Below, in pieces: positions 20,543-23,615 of a DNA stretch of 64,000 bases (the first letter of the stretch is position 1; each line of letters opens with the position of its first letter). The stretch comes from Aerococcus sp. Its GTDB lineage: Bacteria; Bacillota; Bacilli; Lactobacillales; Aerococcaceae. The stretch spans positions 98,234-162,233 of the forward strand of contig JAUMZE010000003.1 of the NCBI GenBank assembly GCA_030528285.1, given 5' to 3'. The position numbers were made by a program, and so were the translations under genes. Under the pieces are notes generated by a model, which was not told where the DNA came from, searched no databases, and was given only the letters and a program-made list of their open reading frames with translations.

Positions 20543-23176
20543 TTAGAGTAAAGCATCATAACGCATGAGATAGCGCTTCTTCACAATCGTTACCAAGATG
20601 AAATAGCACATTGCAGTCACCACCACGAGTCCCCAGAATGTGAGTGGAAGCGGTGAGAGGTGAAGCCAGGCCCCGATCGGAAGGAACGGTAAGAGGGATC
20701 CAACGCCCATTTCTAGTAGCGTGATTAAGAGGAGCGGATGGGTCGGCGTGCTCTCAATAAATGGCAAGTATGGGGTTCTGAGTGCATAGAGAACGAGTGT
20801 CTGCGTCCAGAGTGATTCCACAAACCACCCGGCGTGAAATAGCGCCACAAAATGTTCGGGCATGTTTCCGGTAGTTTCTCCATAATGAACGCCGAGTGTC
20901 TCTGGAATGATGAAGAAGAACAACGCTACAAAGGTTGTTAAGTCGAATATCGAGCTCGTCGGACCAAACCAGAACATGAATGGCTTCAAGGATGACGCCT
21001 CCCATTTCTTCGGAGTCCTGAGATAATCACGATCCATCTTGTCCCATGGAATCGCGAGGCAGGCAATGTCATAAATCAAATTGAGGGAGAGCAGTTGCAC
21101 CGGTGTCATCGGAAGGAATGGTAAGAACAAGCTCGCCATCAATACAGAAAAGATATTGCCAAAGTTAGAGCTGGTGGTCGCTTTGATATATTTCATAATG
21201 TTCCCAAACACCTGACGTCCTAGTACAATCCCCTGTTCCAGTACCAATAAATCCTTCTTGAGGAGAATGATATCCGCGGATTCCTTGGCGATATCGACCG
21301 CATTATCCACAGAAATCGCAACGTCACTGGCACGCATCGCTGGCGAATCATTAATCCCATCGCCCATGAAGCCCACGACATGTCCGTTTGCTCTGAGGAC
21401 TCGCACAATCTGCGCTTTTTGTTGGGGGTTGAGTTTGACGAAAACGTGGTGTGTTTCCACGAGTTCACGAAGATCAGAATCCTCGTAGTCAAGAATGGAT
21501 TCTCCAGTAATGATCGCGTCACTCGAAATGCCGACCTGTTCGCAAACCGCACGCGTCACCCGCTCGTTATCACCGGTGAGGACTTTGATCGCCACTTGAT
21601 GATCGCTGAGCGCTTGGATGGCTTGTTTAGTAGTGGCTTTAGGCGGATCGAGGAACGCCAGGTAGCCAATCAGGGTGAGGGCCGTTTCATCTGCCGTGGA
21701 GAAATGTTCCTGGTCACGCGGATGATCTTTCTGAGCGATACCAATCACGCGCAATCCTTTTTCATTGAGGGCCTCGACTTGTTTGAGAATTTTGGTCTGG
21801 CATTCTTTCGTCAGTGGAATCTCTTGTCCGTCCATCCATGCAGTCTCACTAATCGCCAGCATTTCTTCCATGGCACCCTTGGTAATGAGCTGTGTGGTAC
21901 CAGTTGGCGATTGCATCACGACACTCATGCGCCGACGATTGAAATCAAACGGAATCTCGTCCACCTTGGTCCAATTCGTCGTATCGAAATTGAGATGTTT
22001 CTTAGCAGCGGTGATAATGGCGATATCCATCAAATTCTTGAGTCCCGTTTGATAATAGCTATTGAGATACGCCTGCTGTAAGACATACGGACTCTCATTG
22101 CCCGTGAGATCAAGGTGATATTCCAGCGTGATCTGGTCCTCCGTTAGCGTCCCAGTTTTATCCGTACAGAGCACATCCATCGCCCCAAAATTTTGGATGG
22201 CTGGCAGATGACGCACGATCGTCTCCTGTTTTGCCATGTCCTTGGCGCCCTTCACGAGGTTGGTCGTGACAATCATTGGGAGCATTTCCGGTGTCAATCC
22301 CACTGCCACTGAAATTCCAAATAGCAATGCTTGAAGCCAATCACCCTTCGTGAGGCCGTTGATCAGTATCACAACCGGTGCCATCACTAACATGAATGTT
22401 ACGAGGAGCGATGAGGTTTCTCTGATGCCCTTATCAAAACTAGTTTCAACTGTTTCTGTTGTTTGTGGTTTGGCGATCTGACCGAAGATGGTTTGTTTCC
22501 CCGTTTGAATCACGATCCCCTTCGCACTGCCGCTGACCACTTCGCACCCCATCAAGGCGAGCGTCTCATAATCTGCCGCATTGTGTTGAGTCGTGATGAT
22601 AGCCTGGGCAGATTTCTCCACTGGGTAGCTCTCCCCCGTCAAACTCGTCTGGGACACGAACAAATCTGTTGTTTCGATCAGGCGCATATCTGCCGGAATC
22701 ATGTCGCCCGCCGATAATGCCACGAGATCGCCCGGGACAATCTCCTCGGTCCGCCTCTCCTGGAAAGCGCGATCCCGACAAACCGCTGCCGTGACCTCCA
22801 CGAGTGACTCCAAATTGAGCGTTGTCTTCTGGGTTTGCACACTCTGAATGAACGCGATCGTCCCACTGATGAGAATCAACACGAGAATGATCAGTGGCGT
22901 CATGAAGTCCCGATCAGCCGGTGCCACTAAATAATAACCGGTAATAAATGAAATCACCGCTAAAATCACCAATACCAATGAAAATGGCGTGATATACGCG
23001 TCCCACGCTAAACGCCAGAGTGGAGTAGGCGAAGCTTGCCGGACTTGGTTTTCACCGACCTGTTCTAAACGCTCCGTCGCTGTTTCTGTGTCAAGGCCTT
23101 GGCTAGTGGTGTCTAACCAACGCAGTAATTCTTTGGTCGTTGCGGTTGCTAAAGCAAAGTAGTTTTTATTTGTCAT
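20543..23176 (-). CDS. mgtA: Magnesium-transporting P3B-type ATPase
   Basis: This 877-aa P-type ATPase carries the Mg2+ transporter hallmark TPEMLPM in M4, TGES in the actuator, CTDKTGTLTED with the phosphorylated D339, and GDGINDSPAMR in the hinge. The C-terminal part has six membrane helices. It imports Mg2+ when the ion is scarce. Control is visible: a consensus promoter at 23588-23615, an M-box riboswitch with terminator, and a 28-codon ORF lie in the leader. AAAGGGG eight bases upstream supports ATG 23176. No strong terminator follows, only a weak AACAA/TTGTT hairpin near 20525-20540. Confidence 0.95.
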   Translation of the reverse strand: MTNKNYFALATATTKELLRWLDTTSQGLDTETATERLEQVGENQVRQASPTPLWRLAWDAYITPFSLVLVILAVISFITGYYLVAPADRDFMTPLIILVLILISGTIAFIQSVQTQKTTLNLESLVEVTAAVCRDRAFQERRTEEIVPGDLVALSAGDMIPADMRLIETTDLFVSQTSLTGESYPVEKSAQAIITTQHNAADYETLALMGCEVVSGSAKGIVIQTGKQTIFGQIAKPQTTETVETSFDKGIRETSSLLVTFMLVMAPVVILINGLTKGDWLQALLFGISVAVGLTPEMLPMIVTTNLVKGAKDMAKQETIVRHLPAIQNFGAMDVLCTDKTGTLTEDQITLEYHLDLTGNESPYVLQQAYLNSYYQTGLKNLMDIAIITAAKKHLNFDTTNWTKVDEIPFDFNRRRMSVVMQSPTGTTQLITKGAMEEMLAISETAWMDGQEIPLTKECQTKILKQVEALNEKGLRVIGIAQKDHPRDQEHFSTADETALTLIGYLAFLDPPKATTKQAIQALSDHQVAIKVLTGDNERVTRAVCEQVGISSDAIITGESILDYEDSDLRELVETHHVFVKLNPQQKAQIVRVLRANGHVVGFMGDGINDSPAMRASDVAISVDNAVDIAKESADIILLKKDLLVLEQGIVLGRQVFGNIMKYIKATTSSNFGNIFSVLMASLFLPFLPMTPVQLLSLNLIYDIACLAIPWDKMDRDYLRTPKKWEASSLKPFMFWFGPTSSIFDLTTFVALFFFIIPETLGVHYGETTGNMPEHFVALFHAGWFVESLWTQTLVLYALRTPYLPFIESTPTHPLLLITLLEMGVGSLLPFLPIGAWLHLSPLPLTFWGLVVVTAMCYFILVTIVKKRYLMRYDALL

Positions 23177-23218
23177 TTGTCTGACCCCTTTCCATTGATT
23201 TGGTCTGGGGTTCCCATT

Positions 23219-23305
23219 TTAGGCGTCTGGGACATCAGACAGCATGTGTCCTATTTGTCCCTCAGCTGTTAAAATGTAGAACCACTGTCGATGTCCGTCT
23301 TCCAT
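23219..23305 (-). CDS. Small leader ORF (28 codons) between the M-box and mgtA
   Basis: An ATG at 23305 is preceded by AAAGGAG at nine-base spacing and runs 28 codons (MEDGHRQWFYIL... SDVPDA) to a TAA. It lies 42 bases upstream of the mgtA start and 45 bases after the M-box terminator, so it is made only when the riboswitch permits read-through. It is hydrophilic with one aromatic patch (QWFYIL) and has no membrane helix. By position it recalls the mgtL leader ORF of Salmonella mgtA, but the sequence is unrelated and mgtL is proline-rich. It may be a regulatory leader, a small Mg-stress protein, or chance. Confidence 0.5.
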   Translation of the reverse strand: MEDGHRQWFYILTAEGQIGHMLSDVPDA

Positions 23306-23349
23306 TCTTCGTCACTCCTTTCTTAGCCATAAACTTAAACAAATAAAAA

Positions 23350-23369
23350 AGTCCCACCTTGGTGAGACT
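23350..23369 (-). terminator. M-box-controlled intrinsic terminator
   Basis: On the minus strand AGTCTCACC (23361-23369) pairs with GGTGGGACT (23350-23358, one wobble), followed immediately by six T residues. The upstream GATTGGAT/ATCCAATC stem (23378-23386 with 23407-23414) lies between aptamer and terminator. Confidence 0.85.
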
Positions 23370-23370
23370 G

Positions 23371-23565
23371 CTTTGCTGATCCAATCTCCATTAACTGTTT
23401 GGTGGGGATTGGATAAGTTTCCGTTTTAGCACTACATAACGTCACTATGGCGGGTTAGCTATTTGGGGAAATGCCTTTTCGACAGATCCTGTCCTACCCA
23501 TTGGCGTCTTTGGACATTCTTGGGCAATAGCCTATATTTATGTAGGAGCCTCACTTGACTTCTTT
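23371..23565 (-). ncRNA. M-box (ykoK) magnesium riboswitch
   Basis: The minus strand carries the M-box consensus almost word for word: GTGAGGCTCCTACAT near 23540-23555, TTGCCCAAGAATGTCC near 23508-23526, AAAGACGCCAATGGGT near 23495-23510, and ATGTAGTGCTAAAAC near 23423-23437. High Mg2+ compacts the aptamer and allows the downstream terminator to form, which shuts off mgtA. The aptamer core is roughly 23420-23562; the remainder is the expression platform. An mgtA gene downstream is the expected partner. Confidence 0.95.
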
Positions 23566-23587
23566 ATTCATTTTTAACCTGCATTGA

Positions 23588-23615
23588 ATTATAGACGCTT
23601 CTGGATGAAAGTCAA
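23588..23615 (-). promoter_or_regulatory. Promoter of the mgtA transcript
   Basis: TTGACT (23610-23615) and TATAAT (23588-23593) on the minus strand, 16 bases apart, just upstream of the M-box. Confidence 0.85.

Follow-up and report, generated by a model that had tools for sequence, protein, structure and literature searches.

Is the mgtA message of this Aerococcus locus governed by a riboswitch alone, or does a translated leader add a second layer of control behind it? M-box riboswitches are established OFF switches, in which high Mg2+ leads to termination of transcription, and the classical description of an M-box leader ends at the terminator. For the window (the whole stretch of 64,000 nucleotides analysed here), the original prediction had placed an M-box with its own terminator, a good ribosome site and a 28-codon open reading frame (ORF) in series ahead of mgtA, and had raised translation of that ORF as a second possible layer of regulation. 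The best reading of the locus, which is favoured here with moderate confidence, is that an M-box OFF switch stands in series with an mgtQ-like, acid-stalled translational attenuator controlling mgtA. A translated second layer is thus retained as the best account of the locus, and the same layout is seen again in relatives.

Architecture of the mgtA leader

On the minus strand the leader runs in the order promoter, M-box, terminator, Shine-Dalgarno (SD)-led ORF and mgtA. The features of the locus are as follows.

23588..23615, minus strand: promoter-like TTGACT-16-TATAAT (consensus scan, 11/12 matches)
23404..23569, minus strand: M-box riboswitch aptamer (Rfam RF00380, 111.7 bits, full length)
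23345..23369, minus strand: intrinsic terminator, an 8-bp stem (23369-23350) followed by a T run (terminator scan)
23315..23321, minus strand: SD of the leader ORF, AAAGGAG (sequence)
23219..23305, minus strand: 28-codon leader ORF, MEDGHRQWFYILTAEGQIGHMLSDVPDA (ORF list)
23184..23191, minus strand: mgtA ribosome site, AAAGGGGT (sequence)
23173..23217, minus strand: 14-codon mini-ORF, MGTPDQINGKGSDK (sequence)
20543..23176, minus strand: mgtA, Mg2+-transporting P-type ATPase, 877 aa (TIGR01524, NF011702)

The predicted M-box, its terminator and the SD-led ORF were all recovered. The match to the RF00380 covariance model spans model positions 1-169 and scores 111.7 bits against a gathering cut-off of 44, and it is the sole M-box detected in the genome assembly, which is 85% complete. 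The terminator hairpin is followed by TTTTTATTTG and has a predicted energy of -11.4 kcal/mol, compared with -10.3 kcal/mol for a competing pairing of its 5' arm. This arm, AGTCTCAC, is predicted to pair alternatively with GTGAGGCT, which belongs to the 5' portion of the aptamer, so that the two pairings would be mutually exclusive. By analogy with its family, the M-box of the window, with its terminator, would probably act as an OFF switch through Mg2+-dependent termination. A 621-nt region scanned on both strands contained two promoter-like and three terminator-like sites, against 0.9 and 0.8 in shuffles. The 5' end of the leader also contains a six-codon ORF, MNKEVK (23571-23551, minus strand), which overlaps the beginning of the M-box.

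The identity of mgtA, whose ATG is at 23176, is given by matches to TIGR01524 (1046.8 bits) and NF011702 (1032.1 bits), both above cut-off. The AAAGGAG of the leader ORF sits nine nt ahead of its ATG, and the stop codon of the ORF lies 42 nt from the mgtA ATG, as had been predicted. The leader peptide starts Met-Glu-Asp, which places acidic codons at positions 2 and 3 (Glu2, Asp3). There is no proline in codons 2-6, so an early motif resembling the EPDP of MgtL is absent. The original prediction had gone further and set the mgtL logic aside because the peptide is not proline-rich; this argument loses its force, since the peptide starts M-E-D and early acidic residues destabilise the ribosome in both MgtL and MgtQ.

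The mini-ORF (23217-23173) did not feature in the original prediction. It begins 1 nt past the leader-ORF stop (TAAAATG), its own stop overlaps the mgtA start (ATGA), and a re-initiation relay is possible.

Acidic starts of leader ORFs in relatives

Leaders were extracted for part of the 216 genomes with a strong mgtA match, which gave 110 entries (97 distinct). Among them were 14 of the 80 named loci, and these 14 were left out of the acidic-start count, for which 96 leaders were used. In each leader the ATG ORFs were ranked by SD strength and the top one was taken, blind to the peptide. Such an ORF was present in 88 of the 96 Lactobacillales mgtA leaders and missing from eight. At least two Asp or Glu residues fell within codons 2-6 in 64/88 of these ORFs, whereas the same was true of 16/103 SD-led ORFs that are at least 100 codons long and come from 16 named loci and the window, and, in shuffled leaders, of 5% of 6,949 ORFs. 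Counting at least three Asp, Glu or Pro residues in codons 2-8 gave 38/88 leader ORFs, compared with 2/103 long-ORF starts and 2.7% of the shuffled set. After clustering, the acidic start was present in 23 of 38. Eight leaders were added later, and seven of these had an SD-led ORF, acidic in four of the seven cases; the eight came from 20 fetched leaders, of which two others entered the counts and ten duplicated leaders already included.

The acidic starts are written in differing DNA and read MDDS, MEDS, MEEE, MGDDP, MDHPAPE, MEHPSP, MPEPD, IDDHPEP and MSGDDP. An M-box was found in 20/20 mgtA loci scanned, and in three loci (L067, L072 and L076) the M-box lies 0.8-1.5 kb ahead of mgtA and not directly before the leader ORF. 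Three of five other mgtA leaders from the same genus (G003, G010 and G013) have MVKRCIIS and no acidic ORF.

Several further observations were made on the leaders of relatives. A short basic ORF, MVKRCI(I/L)(S/L) or MIKRCILT, replaces the acidic one in L006, L007 and L009 (same genus) and in L143-L145, and an MVK start precedes the acidic ORF in L003 and L004. L192 has tandem M-boxes (338-510 and 673-851) before one mgtA, and by coordinates its acidic ORF starts between them. Six Enterococcus leaders (L062, L063, L064, L066, L068 and L073) contain, by eye, a three-codon ORF, TTG-GGA-x-stop, after a purine-rich stretch; it is located between the terminator and the leader ORF, roughly 60-90 nt 5' of the latter. 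The leaders of some relatives code for a hydrophobic segment of about 28 aa ahead of mgtA, which often ends in GKK (for example MLLLIIELVVFIGIALLLLNHFWGKKAK). It forms a separate ORF in L003, L005 and L076. In L014, L015, L067, L069 and L072 it is in frame with mgtA and could extend the N-terminus of MgtA, so that in those leaders both the start assigned to mgtA and the SD scored for it are ambiguous. No family match over cut-off was obtained for hydrophobic stretches in two tests, with four examples in one and three in the other.

Outside mgtA leaders of the order, the phylum-level set consisted of the best-scoring M-box matches (60 located), of which 48 loci were used and eight were dropped because the M-box was not located. 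A gene was obtained for 40 loci, an SD-led ORF for 17 and an acidic one for 10; outside the order, the start was acidic in 9/13 SD-led ORFs behind these best-scoring M-boxes. Examples are MDADPEP, MDPDP and MESDDD. Moreover, inspection of 15 M-box loci revealed four mgtE leaders with an acidic/proline start, namely MDPEPD (L041), MDPKP (L045), MDPWP (L046) and MDSVP (L055). Of 12 downstream genes located, 10 were tested, six from the phylum-level set and four from the 15-locus set, and proved to be eight mgtE and two mgtA. Some same-order genomes carry several M-boxes, up to six. In L258, L260-L266, L268, L276 and L277 such further M-boxes precede genes with starts like MNTLKEKKFTPA and KKRKIDWLLLLPY, and no acidic SD-led leader ORF was picked behind those M-boxes.

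RNA pairing and ribosome position

Beyond its start, the leader ORF of relatives appears from sequence comparison to be conserved as RNA pairing and not as protein. Close to the ORF end lies a DNA block for which three reading frames are used, in 16, 13 and 13 of 88 leaders (by pattern); the window lacks this conserved C-terminal block. A sequence read in three frames in relatives can hardly encode a small protein. This bears on the alternative, put forward in the original prediction, that the ORF is a small Mg-stress protein. Its good ribosome site would suit such a product, but the window peptide has no family match in Pfam or NCBIfam and the frame is unconserved in relatives, and the idea, which is hardly credible on these grounds, was rejected.

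Two helices account for the conserved pairing. In the first, a:a', the partner of the block at the ORF end is the start codon of the same ORF together with its ribosome site. A duplex z-score of at most -2.0 was reached by 47/51 leaders, and the window scored -3.9; the 51, used also for b:b' z-scores and start-block folds, were picked by the pattern ATGGA(T/C/A)GA(T/C) and include close relatives. In an alignment of 32 hand-picked leaders, pairing holds in 97.9% of cells and both sides have changed in 28 cells, neither of which was matched in any of 500 shuffles, and slid controls gave 43-58% pairing. Two further measures, pairs with a both-side change (3) and pair types (13), fell within the shuffles (146/500 and 343/500). 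In the second helix, b:b', codons ~7-15 pair with an anti-SD just after the ORF. The mean z over the 51 leaders was -2.5, and among 10 hand-picked relatives 94.9% of cells were paired, with both-side changes at two pairs; pairs with both-side changes and pair types, two of five covariation measures, were again within shuffles (194/500 and 366/500). Inspected by eye, b' frequently shows complementarity to the ribosome site that follows, in agreement with the folds. Per-position pair changes read from best duplexes are biased towards pairing and were not relied on. Together, the acidic start across relatives and the RNA pairing are beyond chance; the parts, their pairing and the recurrence of the layout in relatives were established by calculation.

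The effect of ribosome position was modelled with a 31-nt block, ignoring pseudoknots and co-transcriptional timing. A block at the ORF start lowered the opening energy of the mgtA SD by at least 1.5 kcal/mol in 35/51 leaders, and the window is not one of these 35. Placed on one of codons 1-10, the block saved at least 2 kcal/mol in 49/88 distinct leaders compared with 9/88 shuffled ones. Another SD-led ORF lies before mgtA in 16/51 leaders, and in 6/16 the SD of that ORF opens by at least 1.5 kcal/mol. When seven MDD-type relatives were followed codon by codon, opening energy had two low points, one over the initial 3-7 codons and another late in the ORF. The IDDHPEP-type leaders opened easily at about codons 3-8 in three of four cases, with the fourth little changed; this shift, in a single clade, counts as one lineage. 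Little modulation was seen in several leaders (G277, G278, G051, G013 and G240). Among 12 phylum-level leaders scanned, opening is greater with the ribosome at early codons than at mid codons in seven but not in five, and in one of the seven (L253) the early-codon opening is no greater than without a ribosome. The open codons lie no closer to the Asp, Glu and Pro positions than their shared N-terminal placement would give (permutation across leaders, P 0.32), and a coupling between the two was accordingly rejected as proof.

The strands of the window's own candidate switch are the following.

23285..23296, minus strand: helix strand a, GGACATCGACAG, ORF nt +10..+21 (pairs with a', -16.8 kcal/mol)
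23230..23242, minus strand: helix strand a', CTGTCTGATGTCC, ORF nt +64..+76 (pairs with a)
23270..23285, minus strand: helix strand b, GTGGTTCTACATTTTA, ORF nt +21..+36, from the end of codon 7 to codon 12 (pairs with b', -12.0 kcal/mol)
23207..23221, minus strand: helix strand b', the anti-SD TAAAATGGGAACCCC, beginning at the leader-ORF stop codon (pairs with b or with the mgtA SD)

The mgtA SD is predicted to be sequestered by b', for which b is the predicted alternative, upstream partner. Helices a:a' and b:b' interleave, and a joint fold of both is impossible in these calculations. Since helix a of the window does not include the acidic codons (+4..+9), pairing provides no explanation for them. 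With the P-site at codons 1-3, folding predicts about 12 b:b' pairs; at codons 7-19 there are none, and pairing of b' with the SD rises from about two to four pairs. The predicted SD opening energy is 5.1-5.4 kcal/mol at codons 1-3, 5.4 kcal/mol without a ribosome and mostly 7-8 kcal/mol in mid-ORF, the corresponding values in a second calculation being 6.0, 6.0 and 8.0 kcal/mol. The difference between mid and early positions, a weak predicted effect of 1.69 kcal/mol, is reached by 5/400 shuffles, and the SD is freely open in no state. In the ribosome-free fold b:b' already dominates (8.7-10.2 pairs, against 1.9-2.9 for a:a'), so that an early ribosome would gain nothing over the empty leader and the ribosome of the window would mainly close the site by advancing. 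When more upstream sequence is included in the fold, the mgtA start pairs with the T run of the terminator, and folds with and without that stretch are therefore both given. The whole-leader fold of the window (z -1.7, with 6/100 shuffles as low) is not decisive. On these models the switch in the window is plausible rather than demonstrated.

The lowest SD opening energy of the window, 4.1-4.6 kcal/mol, was obtained with the ribosome at the stop codon. This is what would be expected under translational coupling, in which the leader ORF is translated in full, ribosomes re-initiate at the AUG 1 nt past its stop and, by reading the mini-ORF through the SD hairpin, reach mgtA, such that a well-translated leader helps expression. 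The TAAAATG and ATGA overlaps are consistent with such a relay, but the mini-ORF has, by eye, no SD of its own, and coupling offers no reason for the acidic start. Moreover, the distance from leader stop to mgtA varies widely among the extracted leaders, which indicates that close coupling is not general. Coupling is therefore considered an unlikely explanation.

A further alternative is that the ORF is a chance by-product or relic of RNA structure, barely translated, and that the M-box alone controls mgtA. The b:b' pairing of the window itself leaves some room for this. It is marginal in a blind, generic scan, which gave z -1.2 and picked a different duplex, and the P-value of 0.0125 for the chosen helix was calculated after that helix had been chosen. 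In addition, the C-terminus in relatives conserves RNA pairing only, and the closest mgtA found, 61% identical, is too distant for a comparison of the frame. Against it stand the strong, well-spaced SD and the recurrence of the acidic N-terminus with different DNA (EEE, DHPAP, DDHPEP, PEPD and GDDP) outside the MDDS group, and a by-product of this kind is judged rather unlikely.

A proposed two-sensor mechanism and its relation to known leaders

In the favoured reading, an M-box in series with an acid-stalled attenuator, two Mg2+ sensors would act one after the other on the mgtA message. At high Mg2+ the M-box aptamer and terminator would halt transcription. Transcripts that escape would carry the leader ORF, on which, at low Mg2+, acidic codons 2-3 may slow or destabilise the ribosome. 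A ribosome held on codons 1-3 would leave strand b, ahead of it, free to keep the anti-SD b' in b:b', which would relieve part of the block on the mgtA site; with ample Mg2+ the ribosome would advance and cover b, and b' would refold onto the mgtA SD. In many relatives a:a' would, in addition, keep the switch off in the absence of a ribosome, a state that folding of the window does not predict. From this layout we infer that the leader ORF is translated, that stalling on it depends on Mg2+ and that control runs in the direction described.

Another alternative is polar control of the MgtL type, in which ribosome drop-off at the acidic codons would alter the access of Rho to the leader, and transcription rather than translation of mgtA would be regulated. 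The genome does encode Rho (TIGR00767, 598.7 bits, above cut-off), and a Rho mechanism can therefore not be dismissed for want of the factor. However, the anti-SD layout points to translation and an intrinsic terminator is already present at the M-box, which makes polar control very unlikely here.

Whether the attenuator reading extends beyond this locus is a more tentative matter. It is possible, though somewhat doubtful, that Bacillota mgtA and mgtE M-box leaders commonly pair an aptamer acting on transcription with an acidic/proline peptide acting on translation, in series, the second reporting ribosome-effective rather than free Mg2+, and that this second sensor has arisen repeatedly with unrelated peptide and RNA sequences. 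If so, Mg2+ sensing through ribosome stability would be a convergent and general strategy, and one mRNA would unite two independent Mg2+ measurements. The leaders would, moreover, supply natural test sequences (EEE, DDHPEP, DADPEP and ESDDD starts) for nascent chains that destabilise Gram-positive ribosomes. The published Mg2+ leader peptides of this destabilising kind encountered in the accessible literature are from E. coli, Salmonella and relatives.

The closest match in logic to the window leader, as far as the accessible part of the source describes it, is mgtQ of Salmonella, an 8 aa upstream ORF (uORF) between two genes of the PhoP-controlled mgtCBRU operon (PMC8092293). There, the ribosome site of the ATPase gene is held in a stem and freed when the ribosome stays at the ORF start, and MgtQ needs Asp2 and Glu5 but not the proline (PMC8092293). 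Both leaders have a short SD-led ORF with acidic codons near its start ahead of a gene for an Mg2+ P-type ATPase, and a stem over the ATPase SD competes with an upstream stem in mgtQ and, by prediction, in the window; a start-held ribosome favours the open form in mgtQ and may do so in the window. They differ in length (28 aa in the window, 8 aa in mgtQ) and in that the window ORF follows an M-box and terminator, with no M-box mentioned for mgtQ in that part of the source; unlike mgtQ as described there, the leader-ORF start in relatives pairs with the 3' end of the same ORF. The likeness to the enterobacterial mgtQ is one of mechanism only.

MgtL of E. coli and Salmonella is likewise an mgtA leader peptide with early acidic residues, which, according to the accessible text, destabilise ribosomes in low Mg2+ (PMC11282234). 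Its destabilising motif is EPDP, and when Glu2 and Asp4 were changed, expression of an mgtA fusion was undetected (PMC11282234). MgtL combines this motif with Rho-dependent termination as there reported, whereas the window ORF shows the anti-SD layout.

The view in the original prediction that M-box leaders control by termination only has to be qualified. It agrees with the ykoK/M-box OFF switch (RF00380), with which the window shares an aptamer and intrinsic terminator before an Mg2+ transporter gene, but in M. tuberculosis pe20 an M-box is reported to govern uORF translation together with Rho termination (PMC12810186, accessible part). The pe20 leader (uORF2) shares with the window an M-box followed by short ORFs before the regulated gene, translated in the case of pe20 (PMC12810186). 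The arrangements differ, in that the pe20 M-box controls uORF translation plus Rho; the classical M-box description, as summarised in the accessible part of the same source, stops at the terminator (PMC12810186), to which the window adds a leader ORF and a candidate SD switch. The term mgtL is absent from the text of PMC12810186, and the terms mgtA, mgtE and M-box are absent from a survey of bacterial structured RNAs (PMC8632094). In full-text searches of the open-licence literature, which for the longer result lists covered the 15-25 top-ranked papers, no report of acidic leader peptides behind Bacillota M-boxes was found; this absence is weak evidence. Judged against the accessible parts of these sources, the acidic leaders of mgtQ and MgtL and the M-box OFF switch are each known, and what appears to be new is their meeting in Bacillota, where an acidic leader ORF lies behind an M-box.
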